Source: a bacterium
GTDB lineage: Bacteria > UBA9089 > CG2-30-40-21 > SBAY01
NCBI GenBank assembly: GCA_040757115.1
Contig: JBFLYA010000078.1
Span: 1 to 9,949, forward strand
Length of the DNA stretch: 9,949 nt
Direction of reading: 5' to 3'
Part shown: in pieces, positions 679 to 9,949 of the stretch
Numbering within the stretch: the first letter of the stretch is position 1
Layout of the letters: each line of letters begins with the position of its first letter
The notes under the pieces: model-generated
Databases searched by the model: none
What the model was told of the DNA's origin: nothing
Seen by the model: only the letters and a program-made list of their open reading frames with translations
Made by a program: the position numbers and the translations under genes

Positions 679-2418
679 ATGACAGATAAACTGATAGATA
701 CGAACATTCTTGTATATGCTTACGATACCTCTGAAGGAATAAAACATGAGAAGTCAAAAAACCTTTTGAAACAGATATGGAAAGCAGGTGGAGGAATTGT
801 CTGTGTGCAAAATCTGATAGAATTTTTTATTGTTATCACCCCAATTGTCTTATTGTCTTTATCGTTTATCCCTTTTGCTTCTGCTGATGGGTTCATTCAT
901 ATTTACTATGAAGACAAGTGGAATTTATTCAATGAAGACCAGCAACTCTGTGCAATTAACTATAAAGACGGATTCCAAAATATGATTTTAATAGTAGACC
1001 CAGGTCAAGAACTAACCGGAGAAAAAGCAGTTTGGATATTTCCTATTCCAGTAAAACCAAATAGAATTGCTATCAATATTGTGAAAGATTTCCCTCAATT
1101 TTTGGGTTATGATGTTCAAGATAAAGCTGATGAATCAATCTCTAATGTTTTTATGGCTATGCGAGCAACCCAAATTTATACCTTTCCAGTCTTATCTCTC
1201 ACTATGCTTAAAATGGAAGGAGGAAGAAAGGGACTGGAAGATATGTTGGAGGAAGTTACCATTTATAACCATATTGAAAAAATGGGACTTACTACAGAAT
1301 TGGTTTCTGCTGTTGATGGGTCTTCATTGACAAATTATGTAACTTCAAAAGGTTTAAACTTACCAGAATCTTCAAGGTCTATTTTAGATGAATATATAGG
1401 TCGAGAATATTCTTTTGTCATATCCTGGATTTCTAATATTGAAAAATTCAAACAGGAGCAAGGATCAGTAAAACAAGGCTATGGTGAAAAGTGGGAAATG
1501 GGGACAAGTAATTCAATTGGGGTTTTTATTACATTCCCAACTGATAAAATATACTATCCTCTAAAACCAACATCTGTTTATGGAAGTAAAAGAGTTGCAG
1601 CAGTCATTTATGTTTTAGATTATGTCGAGCCTGAATTATACGATGGAGTTAAAACAAATGCCGAACTAAATTATTTCTTTGAAAACCAATTAAGTGCTCC
1701 AGAAGGATTAAGAGATTTTTTTGCTGAATATGAAAAGAAGCCTTACACTTACTATGCAGGAGAGGCTCAAGAACAAGGTTTCACGGTAAAAGATGTAAAA
1801 TATACAAGAATCAAAATAAATCCACCTTCAAAATATTTAACTCAAGATTTATGGATGAAAGTATCTGCCCCATTTAAAATAAAAGCAGCTGATTTTGCAA
1901 GCAGATATGGATTATTATACGGTTTAATATTTTTTATATTATGTTCTTGCTTAGCAAGTTTATTATCGGGTATGATTATTTTTAGAAACAAAACAATCTC
2001 AAAATTAAAATTTACATTGTTTGGTCTATGGAATTTCCTGACATTAATTGGTTTTTCAATCGCCGCTTATATTACTAAAATTGACATTAAATCTACCCAA
2101 TCACAAGAAATTCAAAAAAGTGATATTTCATTTGGAAAGATTATTACACGAAGCTTACTTATTGCACTTGTGATTACTGTTCTGTTTTTATTCCTCCTGT
2201 TTTTATTCCTATATACAAGTTCATTGAGATACTGGGATTTTGAAATGACTACTTCTGTGCTAATTATGTATGCTATTACAAGTGCATTCATCGCTATTTT
2301 TGAATGGGGTTATTACAAAAACAGGGAAATAATGAAGTTCATAATTTTGTTTACAGCACTATTTATTGTTCTAACAATAATTTCTCAAGAATTTTTGAAT
2401 TTGATAATCATTTTCTAA
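679..2418 (+). CDS. chimeric ORF: truncated PIN (VapC-like) toxin fused to a membrane protein
   Basis: The start is ATG 679, behind AAGGAGAGG (664-672), giving 579 residues. Residues 1-54 match the N-terminal third of a PIN-domain ribonuclease: KLIDTNILVYAYD carries the first catalytic Asp (D7), and VQNLIEFF carries a conserved acidic position (E48). A complete PIN domain is about 130 residues, so the later acidic residues are missing and nuclease activity is unlikely. From about residue 51 the sequence becomes a signal-peptide-like segment (PIVLLSLSFIPFASA, 55-69). A ~340-residue extracytoplasmic region starting DGFIHIYYEDKW follows. Then come about five membrane spans, near 410-433, 445-465, 492-514, 525-546 and 554-579. 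The second part resembles archaeal and bacterial DUF2330-like surface proteins, but I hold that weakly. The membrane protein seems to have lost its own start and borrowed that of the toxin. A genuine deletion fusion and an assembly chimera are both possible. Confidence 0.7.
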   Translation: MTDKLIDTNILVYAYDTSEGIKHEKSKNLLKQIWKAGGGIVCVQNLIEFFIVITPIVLLSLSFIPFASADGFIHIYYEDKWNLFNEDQQLCAINYKDGFQNMILIVDPGQELTGEKAVWIFPIPVKPNRIAINIVKDFPQFLGYDVQDKADESISNVFMAMRATQIYTFPVLSLTMLKMEGGRKGLEDMLEEVTIYNHIEKMGLTTELVSAVDGSSLTNYVTSKGLNLPESSRSILDEYIGREYSFVISWISNIEKFKQEQGSVKQGYGEKWEMGTSNSIGVFITFPTDKIYYPLKPTSVYGSKRVAAVIYVLDYVEPELYDGVKTNAELNYFFENQLSAPEGLRDFFAEYEKKPYTYYAGEAQEQGFTVKDVKYTRIKINPPSKYLTQDLWMKVSAPFKIKAADFASRYGLLYGLIFFILCSCLASLLSGMIIFRNKTISKLKFTLFGLWNFLTLIGFSIAAYITKIDIKSTQSQEIQKSDISFGKIITRSLLIALVITVLFLFLLFLFLYTSSLRYWDFEMTTSVLIMYAITSAFIAIFEWGYYKNREIMKFIILFTALFIVLTIISQEFLNLIIIF

Positions 2419-2430
2419 AAAACACAATCA

Positions 2431-2454
2431 GAGTCAGACCTCGAAAGCAGAATT
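2431..2454. repeat. half copy of the GGTCAGACC palindrome
   Basis: GAGTCAGACCTCGAAAGCAG (2431-2450) and the next few bases match the left arm of the perfect palindrome at 8281-8306 except for a few substitutions. No matching right arm follows. It lies 12 bases after the stop of the chimeric ORF. Confidence 0.6.
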
Positions 2455-2490
2455 AACTTGACGATAGAAGAAAAACGGCGACCATTAAAA

Positions 2491-2547
2491 GTCTAACCGA
2501 TCAATGAAGCGGATTCGCTTTGCTCACCGCTTATTTCTGTCTTAGAC
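2491..2547 (+). other. attC-like integron recombination site
   Basis: This 57-base site reads GTCTAAC (2491-2497, R''), spacer CGATC, AATGAAGCGG (2503-2512, L''), a 14-base loop, CCGCTTATT (2527-2535, L'), spacer TCTGT, and CTTAGAC (2541-2547, R'). The outer arms pair over six bases. The inner arms pair over nine, leaving one unpaired G (2506) on the left arm. This is the layout of known attC sites: two boxes per side, 5-base spacers, and an extrahelical base in L''. The R' box has C instead of the G of the essential GTT triplet, which should impair recombination. It sits between the chimeric ORF and the toxin-antitoxin pair, as an attC between two cassettes would. Confidence 0.5.
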
Positions 2548-2572
2548 GTGAGAATATGAGGAGGCAAAAACA

Positions 2573-2782
2573 ATGTTGGAAGTACACAAAAGAATAGTTC
2601 TCGATGAAAATCAACGCCCATTTGCTATTCAGATACCTATTGAGGAATTCGAACGATTGGAAGATGTCATCGAGAATTATGGGCTGTCAAAGATGATGGG
2701 CGAAGTAAAGGATGACGAAAAAATGTCCGTAGAGGAAGCAAGAGAATATTATGGGTGGTTGAAGACAAATGTGGAATGTTGA
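2573..2782 (+). CDS. RelB/Phd-type antitoxin of a type II toxin-antitoxin pair
   Basis: A 69-residue protein starting 8 bases after a perfect AGGAGG (2559-2564). The N-terminus (RIVLDENQRPFAIQIPIEEF) has the look of antitoxins whose first part dimerises and binds their own operator. The acidic C-terminal half (KDDEKMSVEEAREYYGWL) would wrap around and neutralise the toxin. Its last 14 bases overlap the start of a RelE-like reading frame, the usual antitoxin-first, coupled arrangement. Since the toxin gene is frameshifted, this antitoxin may be a leftover, or may act against related toxins elsewhere. Family membership is inferred from sequence style and context. Confidence 0.75.
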   Translation: MLEVHKRIVLDENQRPFAIQIPIEEFERLEDVIENYGLSKMMGEVKDDEKMSVEEAREYYGWLKTNVEC

Positions 2783-3031
2783 GTACACAAAGCGTTTTCT
2801 TAAAGAGCTATCCGAATTGCCAAAAGAAGTCCGATCTCGGGCAGAAAAGATAGTCTTTGAGGAACTGCTGATTGGTAACCCCTTTTCGCTTGGATATATT
2901 GAGGGTATCCAGATAAGTATAAGATTCGGGTTGGTGATTACAGAATCGGTATCACAATAGATAAGCAAAGCGATTTGATAATTTGTCAACGGATAGCCCA
3001 TCGCAAAGATATATACAGGATGTTCCCATGA
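2769..3031 (+). pseudogene. RelE/ParE-superfamily toxin, frameshifted
   Basis: The frame from ATG 2769 gives a typical RelE start (VEYTKRFLKELSELPKEVR, then ELLIGNPFSLGYIE). After codon 45 (GAG, 2901-2903) it goes wrong and stops at 2960. The true continuation lies in the -1 frame from about 2903: GYPDKYKIRVGDYRIGITID, then a run ending QRIAHRKDIYRMFP and a stop at 3029-3031. Joined, the two parts give about 87 residues, normal for the family. They include the basic core (KYKIRVGDYR) and the C-terminal R-x-x-HRKDIYR motif associated with mRNA cleavage at the ribosome. A deletion of 3n+1 bases in the loop before GYPDKY would explain the shift. No slippery heptamer is visible, so programmed frameshifting is unlikely. 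The toxin is probably dead. Confidence 0.8.
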
Positions 3032-3057
3032 AAAGATAATTAGGGATAGGGGAGTAA

Positions 3058-3115
3058 GGTCAGACCTTGAATGTAGAAAGTAGTTCCTTTTACATTCAAC
3101 ATTCACGGTCTGACC
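3058..3115. repeat. GGTCAGACC palindromic repeat, full copy
   Basis: GGTCAGACCTTGAATG (3058-3073) pairs with CATTCACGGTCTGACC (3100-3115), 15 of 16 positions, with 26 bases between. A G-rich lead of TAGGGATAGGGGAG type (3041-3054) precedes it. The first 28 bases (3056-3083) recur exactly at 9250-9277. It is REP-like in size and form. Families of this kind are often moved by REP-associated tyrosine transposases, but none is encoded here. Confidence 0.8.
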
Positions 3116-3197
3116 CTGACCCCAAACCTTGCTCTGTTTTTTCTCTGCGTCTCTGCAGTAAAGGATTACCTAAACGGTTACAAAACATCGTTGTCAT

Positions 3198-3225
3198 ATT
3201 ATACCACAATTTCAATCTATGTCAA
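3198..3225 (-). promoter_or_regulatory. sigma70-type promoter reading leftward
   Basis: On the minus strand TTGACA (3225-3220) and TATAAT (3203-3198) are both perfect, with a 16-base spacer. The predicted start is near 3190. The transcript would run through the palindrome at 3058-3115 and antisense to the RelE pseudogene and its antitoxin. No minus-strand gene is evident in its path, so it may serve a non-coding RNA, be left over from a lost gene, or be an AT-rich coincidence. Confidence 0.45.
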
Positions 3226-3351
3226 TTAAAATTTTATACATACACTAAAATTTGTTCATCGTCAAACAAAATGTAGTTTTTTTGTCAACACTCACTCGAG
3301 GTCTAACCCAAAATAGTAGAAGATATTTTTAAAAAATTCTCGATCAGCCAC

Positions 3352-3380
3352 TTGACAAAAAAGGAAAAATAAAGTATAAT
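3352..3380 (+). promoter_or_regulatory. consensus sigma70 promoter of the Rhs gene
   Basis: TTGACA (3352-3357) and TATAAT (3375-3380) are both perfect and separated by exactly 17 bases. Transcription should start near 3387, leaving a leader of about 60 bases before ATG 3450, with AAGG (3437-3440) as a modest ribosome binding site. It is the only full-consensus plus-strand promoter I see in the window. Confidence 0.75.
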
Positions 3381-3449
3381 TATCAGTATATTAGAAGACT
3401 CTCGGATATCAAGTTTGAAGGGGATTTTTATAAGATAAGGACTATTAAA

Positions 3450-6400
3450 ATGAAGAAATTTGCATCTCTATTGTTAGTATTATTAATATCAATACTTATT
3501 TTGCCAACAAAAGAGTGTTTTAGTGAAGAAGAGAGAGGATGTGGGATAAGAAGGTATATAAGTGAAGTTAAAATAGTCTCTGAATGGCAAATTGATGTCA
3601 CGGTAATGGTTAAGTTTAGTGAGGATTGTAGTCAATCTGGGAATTATATAAAGGTATGGATAGAACATGCCGGATGGTATTATGAGGATATAATCTATGA
3701 TGTTCCAGTAGGAGAGTGGATAGTTCATACTTTCCATTTCTTTACCTATGAACAATTGGCTAATGGAACCTCTCTTCGAATAGTATTAGAGGCTTATTCT
3801 CCTCCTATTACCTTTAAAAATGATGAAGTAAGAGGCAAGGTATATATGGATACCGAAAATCCTATCCTGGGTATCCCCTATGATAGAAATGCCTTGATAT
3901 TTGAGCCAATAAATATTACAAATGGTAATATGATTATGACTTCTAAAGATATGTTTTTACCTGGCAAGAATCTTCATATTAAATTTGATAGAACATATAA
4001 TAGCAGAAGTAATGAGATTGGACCATTTGGATATGGCTGGACTCATAGTTATAATATGTATCTTTTATTCAAATCTCAAAATCCAATGGCTGGAGCACTA
4101 AAGTTCTATGTAACATATCACTCTCAACCCCCACCACAAATTCCAAAATTTAGTGAAAAGAATTCAAAGGATAATGATAATTTTGTGGTAGTTGTAGATG
4201 AAACTGGTAGGTGGATTGTATTCACTAAACAAAATGATACTTATCTCCCACCTCCTGGAATCCATTCTACTTTAACAAAGAACATAGATAATACATATAC
4301 TTTACGAGAAAAGGATACTACTGAATATAATTTTGATTCAAATGGCAACTTAACTTCTATAATAGATAGAAATGACAATCAGATAAGTCTTACCTACACC
4401 GATAATAAACTTACTCGAATAACCAGTTCATCAGGACGGTTTATTGAACTGGAATATTATCCTGAAGAATACATTAAGTTAATTAGAGATAATATGGGAA
4501 GAGAGGTATCTTATATTTATGAAGGAGATGACCTGGTCAAAGTTATTGACCAGGAAAATAACGAGACTAAATATACTTATTTAAATCATAACCTCACTCA
4601 GAGAACAGATGCAAACTCAAATTCTATATATTTTACCTACCATTATGATAATGATATGGTAACTGAGGCAAAAGGTGCTGGAAATAATTACAAGCTGAGT
4701 TTATCTTATGACCCGGTATACAACAAAATTGTAGTTACAGACTCAAAAGGATATAATACGGAATATTATTATAATGAGAGTAATGTAATAACTAAGATTG
4801 TTGACGGAGTAGGTAATATTCAAGAATTTGGCTGGGATACGGATTTAAATAAGATATGGGTTAAAGATGCAAATGGGAATATTACAAAGATGGGTTATGA
4901 TTCAATGGGTAATATAACCAGCATAACTCCTCCAGCACCATTTGATACTCAAATTACTAATTTTACATATCACCCAACATATAATTTTATCACTTCTATT
5001 GACGACCCTATACATCCTGCTACTACATTTACATATAATGATAATACAGGTGATTTACTTTTTGTCACAGACCCATTAGAAAACCAGACCGAATATCAAT
5101 ATAATGGATATGGACAGTGCATATTGATGATAGATGCTAAACACAATAAAACAAAATATGAATATGAGAATAGATGGGGAGACCTTACTGAGGTAATAGA
5201 AGGATATGAAGTATTAAATTATGTGACTCAATTTAGTTATGATGATGTTGGTAATAGAATAAGTATGACAGATGCAAATGGAAATATCACTGAGTATATT
5301 TATGACAACTGTAATAGACTCACGGATATAATCTATCCAGGAGATAATGGCACTACGGATTATGAATATGATGGAGTTGGTAATAGAATAAGTATAACAG
5401 ACGCAAATGGTGTACTAACTACCTATGAATATGATGTTGTTAATCGACCTGGAACTGTTACTATTGACCCATTCGGATTAGCTATTAGAACTGCTTATCA
5501 ATACGATACTGAGGGAAATAGAATTAGTCTAACTGACTCCAACGGCAATGTTACTCATTATGAATATGACCCATTAAACAGATTAATAAAGGTAATCTCG
5601 GAAGACCCGGATGGTCCAGGACCTAAGGAGTCAGGTATTACTATATTTGAATATGACCCGGTGGGTAATAGAACTAAGATGATAGATGGAGAAGGAAATA
5701 TTACCAGATATGAGTATGATGTATTAAATAGACCTGGGACAGTCACACAGGTTTTAGATGGTAGAGACTTAAAGACTGGCTATGAATATGATGAGGTAGG
5801 TAACTTAAGATTTATTACAGATGCCAATGGACATACATCAGAATATCAATATGATGCCTTAAATCGCCTACGATTTAGTATTGACCCATTACTCAATACC
5901 ACTGAATACCAATATGATGAGGCAGGTAATTTAGATTATAAGATAAGTGCTAATGGGACTATGATTAACTATGTTTATGATGAGGTAAATAGACTAACAT
6001 CAATAATATATCCAGATACTAAACAGGTAAATTATGAATATGACCCGGTAGGGAACTTAACTAAGATGCAAGATTTTTATTTTAATACCTGGTATGAATA
6101 TGATGAATTAAATAGATTAAGTACTGAGACTCATTTTGCAGATTTTCTTAAGGTAAGGTATGGTTATGATAATGTAGGAAATAGAATAAGCCTTAGTGAC
6201 CCGTATGGAAGGACACTGAGATACAAATATGATCCAGCCAATCGATTAACTAATTTAGTCTTACAGGATAACAAAGGTACAATTTCATATACCTACAATC
6301 CAGTAGGAACTATAAAAGAGGTAGATTATCCTAATTTAGTAAGAGTTTCTTATACCTATGATAATTTAAACAGATTAACCCAACTGGTAAACAGAAACCA

Positions 6401-7691
6401 GGCAGGAACTATATCTTTCTTTAGTTATGATTATGATAAAGTAGGAAATAGAAATTATATGTTCACAAATAGTGGGACAACAAGTTATACTTATGATAAC
6501 CTATACAGGTTGACACATGTGAAATATCCTGAGCAAAGTTTTACTGATTATACCTATGATGATGTAGGTAATCGTGATACGATGACTACTTTAGAAGGGG
6601 TAACAAACTATACTTATGATGAGGCAAATAGACTTATTCAAGCAGGGAGTATTACCTACGGTTATGATAATAATGGTAATATAATTGAAAAGGTAACACC
6701 GCAAGGGACTATTAGTTATACCTACGATTATGAAAATAGGCTAATAATAGTAAGTAAGGGTTCACAGCCACAGGTTAATTACTATTATGATGGATATGGT
6801 AGGAGGTTAGCCAGACAAGTCGGTAATGAGGTAACAATCTATCTCTGGGATGGGCAGAATGAGTTAATGGAGTATGATTATTTTACTGCCAGTCCATTAG
6901 CAGAATATATTTATGCAGATGGTCAGCTTGTATCAAAGGATTTAGTCATGGGAGGATTATTCACTGCTTTCTTCCATCACGATGGATTAGGGAGTATAAG
7001 GGATATCACAGATAGGGAAGGAAATGTTCTAACTTCGTATGACTACGATGCATTTGGAGAGGTAAAACAGGGATACATTGGTAAATATAACTATAACTCC
7101 TTCACGGGGAAACAATATGACCCAGAGAGTAAGTTATATTACTTCGGCGCCAGATACTATGACCCGAAAATAGGGAGGTTTATAACAAAAGACCCAATAT
7201 TAGAGCCGATAGTGTTACAGAGTTTATCCTTGCCTTTTGAAATACTGTTATCAAAACCTTCTCCTGTTATTTTCCTGATTCCTCATATGAAAGAAACTCC
7301 TCAGGAGTTTCATCCATATATGTATTGCTACAATAATCCTGTAAACTGGGTAGACCTATGGGGATTATGTTCTGAAGAAGATTGGGGATTATATGGAGGA
7401 ATAAATTTAAAAGACTGGGGAGCAAAAATAGGAATTATAGGAATTTCTGGAGGAGCGAAAGATACAAAAGCTTATGTAAGTGGGCAACTTTTAGTTTTAG
7501 GAATAGAAGCAGGATATAATTGGTGGAATATGCAGTTTTATTATGAACCTTCCATGGGTATTGAATTTCAGGCTGGTCCTTTTTATGGAGGTTGGGATCT
7601 TGTAAAATTTACCGAGACACTCTGGAGTCCAGGAATAATAGGGAAATTTCCAGAAATAATAGAGAATTTTCAGAAGAAGAAGAAAAATTAA
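3450..7691 (+). CDS. secreted Rhs/YD-repeat polymorphic toxin with variable C-terminal tip
   Basis: A 1413-residue protein. Residues 1-25 form a signal peptide (KKFASLLLVLLISILILP); the cysteine at 23 lacks a lipobox. An unassigned beta-rich domain covers about 30-140. A DUF6531-like entry segment follows near 153-210 (PINITNGNMIM, FDRTYNSRSNEIGPFGYGW). About forty YD repeats (YEYDxxGNRxxxTDxNG type) run from ~285 to ~1180; in this family they wrap into a hollow shell around the toxic tip. The Rhs-associated core is at ~1180-1265 (GLGSIRD, YDYDAFGEV, YYFGARYYDPKIGRF), and the core ends HPYMYCYNNPVNWVDLWGL. The usual DPxGL cleavage motif reads DLWGL here. The remaining 107 residues (1307-1413) are a glycine- and aromatic-rich tip (CT1) of no family I recognise. 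The signal peptide and the lack of a PAAR domain suggest Sec export to the cell surface rather than type VI loading. The next gene is the likely immunity partner. Confidence 0.9.
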   Translation: MKKFASLLLVLLISILILPTKECFSEEERGCGIRRYISEVKIVSEWQIDVTVMVKFSEDCSQSGNYIKVWIEHAGWYYEDIIYDVPVGEWIVHTFHFFTYEQLANGTSLRIVLEAYSPPITFKNDEVRGKVYMDTENPILGIPYDRNALIFEPINITNGNMIMTSKDMFLPGKNLHIKFDRTYNSRSNEIGPFGYGWTHSYNMYLLFKSQNPMAGALKFYVTYHSQPPPQIPKFSEKNSKDNDNFVVVVDETGRWIVFTKQNDTYLPPPGIHSTLTKNIDNTYTLREKDTTEYNFDSNGNLTSIIDRNDNQISLTYTDNKLTRITSSSGRFIELEYYPEEYIKLIRDNMGREVSYIYEGDDLVKVIDQENNETKYTYLNHNLTQRTDANSNSIYFTYHYDNDMVTEAKGAGNNYKLSLSYDPVYNKIVVTDSKGYNTEYYYNESNVITKIVDGVGNIQEFGWDTDLNKIWVKDANGNITKMGYDSMGNITSITPPAPFDTQITNFTYHPTYNFITSIDDPIHPATTFTYNDNTGDLLFVTDPLENQTEYQYNGYGQCILMIDAKHNKTKYEYENRWGDLTEVIEGYEVLNYVTQFSYDDVGNRISMTDANGNITEYIYDNCNRLTDIIYPGDNGTTDYEYDGVGNRISITDANGVLTTYEYDVVNRPGTVTIDPFGLAIRTAYQYDTEGNRISLTDSNGNVTHYEYDPLNRLIKVISEDPDGPGPKESGITIFEYDPVGNRTKMIDGEGNITRYEYDVLNRPGTVTQVLDGRDLKTGYEYDEVGNLRFITDANGHTSEYQYDALNRLRFSIDPLLNTTEYQYDEAGNLDYKISANGTMINYVYDEVNRLTSIIYPDTKQVNYEYDPVGNLTKMQDFYFNTWYEYDELNRLSTETHFADFLKVRYGYDNVGNRISLSDPYGRTLRYKYDPANRLTNLVLQDNKGTISYTYNPVGTIKEVDYPNLVRVSYTYDNLNRLTQLVNRNQAGTISFFSYDYDKVGNRNYMFTNSGTTSYTYDNLYRLTHVKYPEQSFTDYTYDDVGNRDTMTTLEGVTNYTYDEANRLIQAGSITYGYDNNGNIIEKVTPQGTISYTYDYENRLIIVSKGSQPQVNYYYDGYGRRLARQVGNEVTIYLWDGQNELMEYDYFTASPLAEYIYADGQLVSKDLVMGGLFTAFFHHDGLGSIRDITDREGNVLTSYDYDAFGEVKQGYIGKYNYNSFTGKQYDPESKLYYFGARYYDPKIGRFITKDPILEPIVLQSLSLPFEILLSKPSPVIFLIPHMKETPQEFHPYMYCYNNPVNWVDLWGLCSEEDWGLYGGINLKDWGAKIGIIGISGGAKDTKAYVSGQLLVLGIEAGYNWWNMQFYYEPSMGIEFQAGPFYGGWDLVKFTETLWSPGIIGKFPEIIENFQKKKKN

Positions 7692-7729
7692 TATCAAACA
7701 AATTTTAAAAAATACATTTGGTAAAAATA

Positions 7730-8239
7730 ATGGAAAATCCAAATATTTTAGTAAACCATAATAAATATTGTTATACAAGTTTTTGGAAACGCAGTATTTC
7801 TCTTACAATTGATTTTTTGATTCTTGATTTAGTCGGATTTTTATGGATGTTTTTCTTTTCTTTAGGAATGTTAGTATTTTTCCGAATAATACTAAAAGTA
7901 GATGATATTAGAAAGATTAATCTTTTATGGGAAATAATTAGTCAAGTGTGGGTAATAATATCTTTTATATTATTAAGTAGTTACTTTATTTTTATGCATG
8001 GAAGATATGGAGCTACATTGGGTAAAATGATTGTAAGGATAAAGGTTGTTAAGCAAGATTATACACCTATAAATTATAAAATTGCTATGATAAGATATTT
8101 CGCTTTTCTCTTATCATGTGCCACATGTGGGATTGGTTTTCTTTTAGCTGCCTTTGATTCTAAGAAACAGAGTTTACACGATAAAATTGCTAAGACTTAT
8201 GTGGTGTATAGATGTTCAATACAGGATAATGAGAAATAA
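7730..8239 (+). CDS. RDD-family membrane protein, candidate immunity protein for CT1
   Basis: 169 residues from ATG 7730, 38 bases after the Rhs stop; a TTG at 7718 is an alternative start, and neither has a good ribosome binding site. The RDD signature is clear: FWKRSISLTIDFLILD (an Arg, then two Asp in the first membrane span), GATLGKMIVRIKVV before the last span, and LHDKIAKTYVVYR at the end. Three to four hydrophobic spans are visible. RDD proteins are poorly understood, and some have been linked to ion or small-molecule transport. Its place directly behind a variable toxin tip makes an immunity role the best guess. An integral membrane partner would suggest that CT1 acts at the membrane. 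Both points are inference from position. Confidence 0.75.
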   Translation: MENPNILVNHNKYCYTSFWKRSISLTIDFLILDLVGFLWMFFFSLGMLVFFRIILKVDDIRKINLLWEIISQVWVIISFILLSSYFIFMHGRYGATLGKMIVRIKVVKQDYTPINYKIAMIRYFAFLLSCATCGIGFLLAAFDSKKQSLHDKIAKTYVVYRCSIQDNEK

Positions 8240-8280
8240 GGGGGGAATCGGGGGTCGCTCGGAATCGGATAGTGGGATTG

Positions 8281-8339
8281 GGGTCAGACCTCGAAAAGAG
8301 AATTTAAACTGTCTAAATTCTCTTTTCGAGGTCTGACCC
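8281..8339. repeat. perfect 26-bp GGTCAGACC palindrome
   Basis: The 26 bases 8281-8306 (starting GGGTCAGACCTCGAAAAGAG) are exactly complementary to 8314-8339, with a 7-base loop AACTGTC. A G-rich stretch (8239-8280) leads into it. It lies 41 bases after the RDD gene and directly before the displaced Rhs core end: the Rhs frame opens at 8337, inside its last bases. RNA of either strand would form a very stable hairpin and might stop transcripts from the Rhs operon, although no U-tract follows. Confidence 0.9.
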
Positions 8340-8378
8340 TACCTACATACTTCATCTCCTGATTTTATAGTCCCAGAG

Positions 8379-8738
8379 ATGATAGATATTCCCCAAGACC
8401 TCCATCCCTATATGTACTGCTACAATAACCCAATTAATTGGATAGACCCGTTTGGACTATGCCCGGAAGAGCCTGGACTTGAATCTACATGGGATGAGTT
8501 AATGCTTATCCCAGGGTTAGGACTTGTTGGGAAAGTAGGGAAAGGAGCAAAATTTCTAGAGAAAGCAGAGGCTCTGATTTCCGGATATTTAAAACGCTCA
8601 AAATCATATCATTCTGAATATGCAAAGAAAACTTATCAGGAAATCATAGAACTAGCTAAAAAAGGTGATAAAAAAGCTCAACAAATGAAAAAGTTAATTC
8701 AGGAAAGAAAACGATTATTGAAGAAGAGGAAAAAATGA
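8379..8738 (+). CDS. orphan Rhs core end with alternative toxin tip (CT2)
   Basis: 119 residues from ATG 8379; the same frame is open from 8337 and reads Rhs-like SSPDFIVPEMIDIPQDLHPY from inside the palindrome's end. The opening LHPYMYCYNNPINWIDPFGL is the conserved last segment of the Rhs core, nearly the same as in the main gene (FHPYMYCYNNPVNWVDLWGL), and it keeps the DPxGL motif. The remaining ~92 residues are a different tip: a hydrophobic glycine-rich stretch (LIPGLGLVGKVGKGAKF), then a strongly basic helical part (SYHSEYAKKTYQEIIELAKK, ending KRLLKKRKK). I cannot assign a toxin family; the basic charge would suit a nucleic-acid target. There is no ribosome binding site or promoter, so it looks like a silent spare tip that would work after recombining onto the main gene. 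Confidence 0.8.
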   Translation: MIDIPQDLHPYMYCYNNPINWIDPFGLCPEEPGLESTWDELMLIPGLGLVGKVGKGAKFLEKAEALISGYLKRSKSYHSEYAKKTYQEIIELAKKGDKKAQQMKKLIQERKRLLKKRKK

Positions 8739-9226
8739 GAAATTTCAAATATCTGAAAGAAAAAATGGAAGCAATCGAGATTTTAGAGAAACAAGAAGAC
8801 TTTAGGAAATCTTTAAAAGAGGTTCAACATCTCTTAACAGAATTTCCTTATCTTACTCCTTTATTAGTCCTAAAAGGGGAGTTGATTCAACTTTTGGATG
8901 AAGAGGATAGTAACCAATGGAAACTTGAAGATGCAAAAGAGGCATTAGAACAAGCAGTGGCAATTGATGAAAAATCTATGGATGCTTTACTTGAATTAGC
9001 TTTTTATTCTTACGCAGTAGAGGACAACAATGAAATAGCTCTTCATCTTTTTGAGAAGAGTATAAATATGAGTAGAAAATTTTTAGAGGAAGCATATGGG
9101 GGTAAATGTAAGTGTTTATTTGAAACTAATCGAAAAGAAGAAGCTTTAAAATGTCTTAAAGAATCTCTTATAATATTTCCTGAATCAGAGAAATTAAAAG
9201 AAACAGAAGAAGATTTCAAGGATTAG
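8735..9226 (+). CDS. TPR-like protein, candidate immunity protein for CT2
   Basis: 163 residues, acidic and all-helical. Its ATG overlaps the CT2 stop (ATGA, 8735-8738), the tight coupling typical of toxin-immunity pairs. Helical pairs of tetratricopeptide type are visible: DAKEALEQAVAIDEKSMDAL (~68-87), then NNEIALHLFEKSI (~98-110), then RKEEALKCLKESLIIFPESE (~133-152). Such repeats bind other proteins. The acidic helical surface fits the very basic CT2 tip, so neutralisation by direct binding is plausible. There is no signal peptide, so it should act in the cytoplasm. The specific immunity role is inferred from the overlap and from its place behind the tip. Confidence 0.75.
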   Translation: MRNFKYLKEKMEAIEILEKQEDFRKSLKEVQHLLTEFPYLTPLLVLKGELIQLLDEEDSNQWKLEDAKEALEQAVAIDEKSMDALLELAFYSYAVEDNNEIALHLFEKSINMSRKFLEEAYGGKCKCLFETNRKEEALKCLKESLIIFPESEKLKETEEDFKD

Positions 9227-9232
9227 GGATTA

Positions 9233-9277
9233 GGGTCAGATTAGGAATTAAGGTCAGACCTTGAATGTAGAAAGTAG
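9233..9277. repeat. partial GGTCAGACC repeats at the module 2/3 border
   Basis: A GGATTAGGGATTAGGG lead (9221-9235) runs into GGGTCAGA (9233-9240). The stretch 9250-9277 then repeats 3056-3083 exactly (28 bases). The right arm of the palindrome is missing. Instead there is a short hairpin, ATTAAGT (9280-9286) pairing with ACTTAAT (9293-9299). The copy begins 7 bases after the TPR gene stop. Confidence 0.75.
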
Positions 9278-9298
9278 GGATTAAGTTTTTCCACTTAA

Positions 9299-9318
9299 TT
9301 GCTCTTTGACAATCTAAT
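9299..9318 (+). promoter_or_regulatory. boxA-like antitermination sequence
   Basis: TTGCTCTTTGACAATCTAAT closely resembles the boxA element of rRNA operon leaders (E. coli TGCTCTTTAACAATTTA), which binds NusB and ribosomal protein S10 to prevent premature termination. It lies immediately before the third Rhs module. It may be functional, part of the repeat family, or a fragment of another leader. TTGACA inside it has no -10 at usable spacing. Confidence 0.35.
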
Positions 9319-9949
9319 ATTATGATAGTTTTGGCAGAAGGTTAGCCAGGCAGGGTGGAAGTGAGATAAAAGTATATCTCTGGGATGGGCAGAAAGAGTT
9401 TATGGAGTATGATTTTTGGAGTGCCAAGCCATTAGGAGAATATATTTATGCAAATGACCAGCTTGTATCAAAGGATTTAGTCATGGGAGGATTATTCACT
9501 GCTTTCTTCCATCACGATGGATTAGGGAGTATAAGGGATATCACAGATAGGGGAGGAAATGTTCTAACTTCTTATGACTACGATGCATTTGGAGAGGTAA
9601 AGCAAGGCTACATTGGTAAATATAACTATAACTCCTTCACAGGCAAACAATATGACCCAGAAAGTAAGTTATTTTACTTTGGCGCAAGATGGTATGATCC
9701 CCAAGTGGGGAGATTTGTGAGTAAGGATCTAGCGAATATAGCTACAGTACAACTTCCCTATGAACATCGGCCAATAGGAAATATTGGGTCACTTCAAGGT
9801 TACATATATGATCCTACACTACACTACAACATCTTTATGTATATGTAAGCAATAATCCGATTAATTGGATTGATCTTTATGGATTACAACCACATGCAGG
9901 ATTTATAGCAGCCTTACTTAAGATGTCAAATAAGAGTAGAATAGGGTCA
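9318..9949 (+). pseudogene. third Rhs 3'-end module (core fragment and start of CT3), frameshifted
   Basis: Rhs homology begins abruptly at 9318 (YYDSFGRRLARQGGSE, then YLWDGQKEFMEYD) and runs parallel to main-gene residues ~1112-1265. It has the same GLGSIRD, YDYDAFGEV and FYFGARWYDPQVGRF motifs. Bases 9459-9552 equal 6924-7017 exactly (94 bases), and the flanks are also very similar. After RFVSKDL the linker is unlike the main gene's. The frame stops at 9848, but the -1 frame from about 9827 gives LYVYVSNNPINWIDLYGL, the expected core end, then QPHAGFIAALLKMSNKS, the start of a third tip running off the window. There is no promoter, no start codon at the homology edge, and one frameshift: a degraded or silent spare module. 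Confidence 0.85.
9944..9949. repeat. possible start of a further GGTCAGACC copy
   Basis: The window ends in GGGTCA, the first six bases of the repeat as written at 8281. Six bases prove little, but the position, just past the opening of CT3, continues the spacing of copies around each module. Confidence 0.3.

Follow-up and report, generated by a model that had tools for sequence, protein, structure and literature searches.

Repeats identified as ends of TIRYT-type transposase elements in and around orphan Rhs toxin-tip modules

The window analysed here (9,949 nucleotides, positions 1–9949 of contig C78) comes from a bacterial genome of 4.32 Mb (G000) and contains one complete rhs gene followed by two core-end fragments with different tips, an organization that the initial annotation had recognized correctly. 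It was compared with a congener (G001) and with three relatives carrying intact transposase elements (G003, G010 and G006); all are metagenome bins with fragmented assemblies. The features, in contig coordinates, are as follows.

2430–2466, + strand: isolated left end of a TIRYT element, AGTCAGACCTCGAAAGCAGAATTAACTTGAC, near-identical to the intact G003 element over its left terminal repeat and −35 region
3058–3115, + strand: complete type-A palindrome (86.7 bits with model R1), 335 bases upstream of the rhs gene
3234–3308, − strand: degenerate left end of a second element type (GGTTAGACCTCGAGTGAGTGTTGACA...), also present at G000:C30:18824 and in G001
3450–7691, + strand: full-length rhs gene, 1413 aa, with DUF6531 and RHS repeats (Pfam/NCBIfam) and TIGR03696; probable signal peptide, core at 7044–7367 and tip CT1 at ~7368–7691
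7730–8239, + strand: RDD-family membrane protein (PF06271, E=2e-23), candidate immunity protein for tip 1 from its position
8282–8338, + strand: complete type-B palindrome with TCGAAAAGAGAATT arms, directly abutting orphan module 2 at its truncated 5′ end
8344–8738, + strand: orphan Rhs module 2, a truncated core end (TIGR03696) plus tip CT2; ORF 8379–8738
8735–9226, + strand: TPR protein (PF07719), candidate immunity protein for tip 2 from its position
9252–9277, + strand: left half only of a type-A palindrome, also present in G001:C339
9286–9318, + strand: leader TTAATTGCTCTTTGACAATCTAATATTATGAT, common to orphan modules in two genomes
9315–9949, + strand: orphan Rhs module 3, a core end 87% identical to 6780–7192, then a different tip
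9944–9949, + strand: first bases of a fourth palindrome, of which a complete copy lies past an N gap (contig 10063–10120)

Module 2 and the TPR gene together present a core-end fragment, a different tip and an adjacent small gene, as in orphan rhs-CT/rhsI modules; module 3 is incomplete, with a frameshift near 9840 and a tip broken by the next palindrome. Module 2 is 98% identical to contig C112 over 209 bp from 8344, and Rhs core matches in the genome are located on C31, C112, C70, C15, C347, C210 and C78. The module 3 leader is found upstream of three orphan Rhs modules in the two genomes, and could be a promoter or an ancestral junction. One C112 orphan frame (L071:6452–7663, − strand) opens in a palindrome and has, ahead of the core, an InhA-like MAM/choice-of-anchor-J region, which is unusual for an orphan module. 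Elsewhere in the window, a VapC-like PIN start (MTDKLIDTNILVYAYDTSEG...; 679–2418) continues near 830 into the frame of an unrelated membrane protein and, judged by eye, seems to be a toxin gene cut short, and a RelB antitoxin gene is followed by a RelE-like frame shifted near 2918 (2573–3031).

The palindromes have two types of arm, type A (TTGAATGTAGAAAG...) and type B (TCGAAAAGAGAATT...), with the outer motif GGTCAGACC common to both. With at most one mismatch allowed, the window contains 12 occurrences of this motif where 0.78 would be expected, and shuffled sequences never gave as many. The initial annotation had placed palindromes before the main gene, between modules 1 and 2, between modules 2 and 3, and perhaps at the window end. 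The copies before the main gene and between modules 1 and 2 are complete, that between modules 2 and 3 is present as a half, and the suspected copy at 9944 proved real when the contig was extended rightwards past the 100-N assembly gap at which the window ends, the two sides of which overlap by 18 bases (AAGAGTAGAATAGGGTCA). Further along, the contig has a decayed Y1 transposase gene (10975–11106) with GGTCTGACCCC at its end (11146), then a single arm (11796) and a fifth complete palindrome (11840–11897); the transposase relic is too short to be detected by PF01797 alone and was found by direct protein search. The module 2 frame does open within the palindrome at 8282 as had been noticed, a trivial circumstance because the GGTCTGACC segment of that palindrome contains an in-frame TGA (8334–8336).

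Across the 4.32 Mb genome a covariance model finds 25 complete palindromes, and exact matching finds 56 arms compared with 14 for the reversed sequence; the palindromes are therefore dispersed miniature elements and not components of Rhs. Their consensus folds as a single long hairpin (−30 kcal/mol) with compensatory change in 7 of 23 pairs. There is no GTAG-type tetranucleotide tag in the palindrome alignment (A1), no T run follows the palindromes, and the copy number is below the >100 used as a criterion for GTAG-type REP/REPIN sequences. In the literature the bare motif matched primers and unrelated sequences only.

Intact transposase genes in G003, G010 and G006 are bounded by terminal inverted repeats with the sequence of the palindrome arm (GGGGTCAGACC...): GGTCAGACC is situated 60–72 bases upstream and GGTCTGACC, with the TGA stop codon within it, downstream. 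Upstream of the intact G003 gene (323 aa) are GGGGTCAGACCTCGAAAGCAGAATTAA and a TTGACA/TATTAT promoter; the gene finishes in AATTCTGCTTTCGAGGTCTGACCCC, its stop codon falling inside the terminal inverted repeat of ~27–30 bp. The G010 and G006 elements are similarly arranged; in G006 the inner arms differ (TTGAAAACTGAACAG) and the outer arm is the same. The protein consists of a Y1_Tnp domain and a DnaA-C-like C-terminus: PF01797 scores above cut-off in the three intact relatives and the HxH motif is invariant, NF047646 (REP_Tyr_transpos) matches with E=5e-19 at 68.5 bits, below its cut-off of 80, and the C-terminal region matches PF08299 (E 4e-8 to 2e-7) and TIGR00362 (E=5e-10). A scan of GTDB contigs revealed relatives in Brocadia, Kuenenia, Scalindua and others. 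Those with at least 48% identity have the upstream GGTCAGACC arm in 12 of 13 cases and the downstream GGTCTGACC in all 11 that are full-length, and those below 48% have GGGGTC-type ends (e.g. GGGGTCAGGTC) in 20 of 23.

TIRYT/TIRtron elements have GGGGWSAS ends (PMC3733652), and TnpA-REP subclass 2.1 combines a Y1 transposase with a DnaA-C-like C-terminus (PMC6006769). The elements found here have a Y1 HUH transposase related to RAYT, GGGGWSAS terminal inverted repeats around the gene (GGGGTCAG arms) and the helix-turn-helix/DnaA-C-like C-terminal region of subclass 2.1. By sequence, the palindromes are identified as terminal inverted repeats and predicted hairpin-forming miniature derivatives of TIRYT/RAYT-type Y1 (HUH) elements (TIRtrons). 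For type A, the commonest, this link rests on the shared outer arm, since none of the intact elements found has type-A inner arms. No intact element of the subfamily is present in G000, which holds only relics (C12 and C78:10975–11154), so that the mobilizing enzyme may be absent from the assembly or already lost; the repeat family is not defined by having an intact element alongside it in the genome, yet the lack of one limits any claim of current mobility. Two other Y1 transposase genes of G000 were noted. One (C7:12900–14200; L078 ~2400–3700) is apparently inserted in a CRISPR array, with CRISPR repeats (GTGCGAATAATAGACCTGATGAATAAGGGATTGCGAC) on either side and a different inverted repeat (GGTCTTTAGACC) at the ends of the gene, and the other, of IS200 type, forms in frame the C-terminal ~120 aa of a 1111-aa protein, an apparent fusion (G000:C205; L076:1804–5139, − strand).

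The palindromes are enriched ~20-fold at the Rhs loci of G000. Six of the 25 complete copies are within Rhs DNA (70 kb, 1.6% of the genome), where 0.3–0.4 would be expected (P ~1e-6); counted as clusters there are 3 of 17 (P = 0.001), and with the discovery contig excluded 3 of 21 copies (P = 0.0014 by copies, 0.013 by clusters), all of these P values being rough because the tests are post hoc and the copies clustered. The initial annotation had named an equal density at tip borders and in other intergenic regions as the outcome that would count against it; the density at Rhs loci is instead far above that of other intergenic DNA, as estimated from 20 contigs picked irrespective of palindromes. 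In G001, Rhs contigs make up 41.6 kb, or 0.9%, of the genome and carry 8 of the 58 arms, four of these arms being on C339, the ortholog of the window's Rhs locus. The association of this repeat family with Rhs loci is modestly new, the kind of repeat itself being known. A general association between TIRYT and Rhs was considered and rejected, with Rhs genes near the transposase in 5 of 80 GTDB loci and in none among close relatives.

The proposal that a palindrome borders each tip module does not hold across the genome, where most orphan-module borders are without one. Palindromes are found at the starts of both orphan modules on C78, at about one of seven on C112, at none of four on C70 (five tandem modules without any palindrome) and not at the single module on C210, where two solo arms are each at least 1.5 kb from the module; there are none at the Rhs loci of C15 and C347. 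The orphan modules of G001:C40 begin with the module 3 leader and have no adjoining palindrome, and the border of module 3 therefore predates, or is independent of, the repeat at 9252. A low-complexity repeat (GATGCGACCCTTCATGGTTCC and variants) fills palindrome-free gaps between orphan Rhs modules (L168 1340–1560; L070 ~8957–9244). When exchanged tips were compared between the species, as the initial annotation had suggested for strains, the homology with G001 stopped at 7195 in the main gene and 9727 in module 3, within the GRF..KD core motif and not at palindromes. Exchange at the core motif is expected for Rhs (PMC3150448), and to judge from these junctions the main gene exchanges its tips by way of the conserved Rhs core rather than the palindrome. 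Neither feature of a dedicated tip-exchange boundary, presence at most borders and exchange junctions within the element, was found.

Three junctions relative to G001 coincide with palindromes, one in module 2 (C78:8282 versus C339:3824) and two outside Rhs modules (C78:10124 versus C56:4174 and C257:1775 versus G001:C205:5690). Downstream of the RDD gene in G001:C339, ...GGGGTCAGACCTCGAATTGAGAAAATAG runs straight into TGATAAAAAAGCTC within the module 2 tip, with neither the palindrome of 8282 nor the initial 310 bp of module 2 in between; homology between module 2 and a fuller C112 orphan module is likewise lost within ~12 bases of the palindrome. The suggestion that this palindrome marks a break point is thus borne out by both comparisons. 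In G001:C56 the repeat adjoins sequence corresponding to C78:10535, such that the 410 bp next to the repeat differ, and C257 and G001:C205 have 1.2 kb in common that ends inside a repeat on either side. Within Rhs coding sequence, a repeat at C112:1554–1620 cuts the core exactly at the repeat edge, the repeat at C78:9944/10063 interrupts tip 3, and transposase ends interrupt Rhs tips at G001:C40:581 and G006:C65:241. Few repeats have informative flanks in both species; the DNA flanking that at C78:11835 is the same in both, and the flanks of the C290 repeat have no single-copy ortholog in G001. Contig C257 also contains a high-copy repeat of ~300 bp (L034:78–375) with >30 matches in the congener.

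Most of this is probably explained by element ends that accumulate in the orphan-tip region and help to break it, without being dedicated boundary marks, while tips are exchanged through the core. Orphan tip/immunity modules would be unexpressed and tolerant of damage, and insertions of elements and deletions beside their ends would for this reason persist there, truncating modules; the repeated arms may then offer homology or hairpin sites for more rearrangement. The junctions themselves could be products of a putative deletion process linked to the transposase, of crossovers between repeat copies or of slipped replication at hairpins, and the enrichment at Rhs loci could also reflect targeting or selection.

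The first proposal, that the palindrome serves Rhs tip modules specifically as a border or a place of exchange, would suit the enrichment in both genomes and the break at 8282, but is largely refuted and highly improbable: palindromes are missing from most module borders, sister modules start with the module 3 leader and no adjoining palindrome, exchange junctions fall at the core motif, the same kind of break occurs outside Rhs modules, and the arm is that of an unrelated transposase element. Assembly of the cluster mainly by homologous recombination, through crossing over between dispersed palindrome copies, would account for the coincidence of junctions with arms, for the C257/C205 segment and for a GGGGAGCAGA(G)GGGGTCAGACCTCGAATTGAGAAA stretch common to C78:11776–11822 and G001:C339. 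It is nevertheless unlikely, as the shared homology is only 40–70 bp, modules on C70 and C112 are in tandem without repeats, and insertions inside Rhs coding regions are indicative of transposition or of adjacent deletion. Selection for a transcription terminator or an mRNA-stabilising hairpin behind each module draws on the strong hairpin with its compensatory changes and on the several palindromes located after immunity genes; copies within coding sequence (C112:1554 and tip 3), upstream of a gene (3058) and on transposase ends, together with the lack of a T run, make it exceedingly improbable. It is also very unlikely that Rhs tip/immunity modules in this phylum are repeatedly cut, duplicated and moved by the action of terminal repeats of a Y1 transposase family, in which case a partly domesticated transposase system would contribute to polymorphic-toxin turnover.

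With accumulation of element ends as the preferred reading, a previously unexplained palindrome gains an identity through a broad match of transposase and end sequences that links it to the widespread, little studied TIRYT transposases, and the locus illustrates how mobile-element ends may build up in, and break, silent toxin-tip reservoirs. It also cautions that a repeat at module borders need not be a dedicated recombination site.

The elements resemble TIRYT/TIRtrons in their Y1 HUH transposase with a DnaA-C-like C-terminus, in their GGGGWSAS-type ends, in the overlap of the repeat with the 3′ end of the gene and in the dispersal of single and dimeric repeats in the genome; they differ in that the repeats are concentrated at Rhs orphan-module loci and rearrangement junctions and that their own genome has transposase relics only. 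With the REP/REPIN sequences of RAYTs (PMC2817692, PMC3116915) they share short extragenic hairpin repeats thought to be mobilized in trans by a Y1 transposase, although here there is no GTAG-type tag, complete copies are few and the ends are the element's own terminal repeats. As with orphan rhs-CT/rhsI modules (PMC3150448), the full rhs gene is followed by core-end fragments that carry other tips and by candidate immunity genes, but the modules here are partly decayed by mobile-element ends. The neisserial dRS3/NIME repeats and maf silent cassettes (PMC3898611) similarly place short inverted repeats, proposed to raise rearrangement, beside silent cassettes; however, the repeat differs, there is no Y1 transposase there, and maf cassette exchange, unlike the exchange described here, uses repeats common to the upstream gene (PMC3898611).
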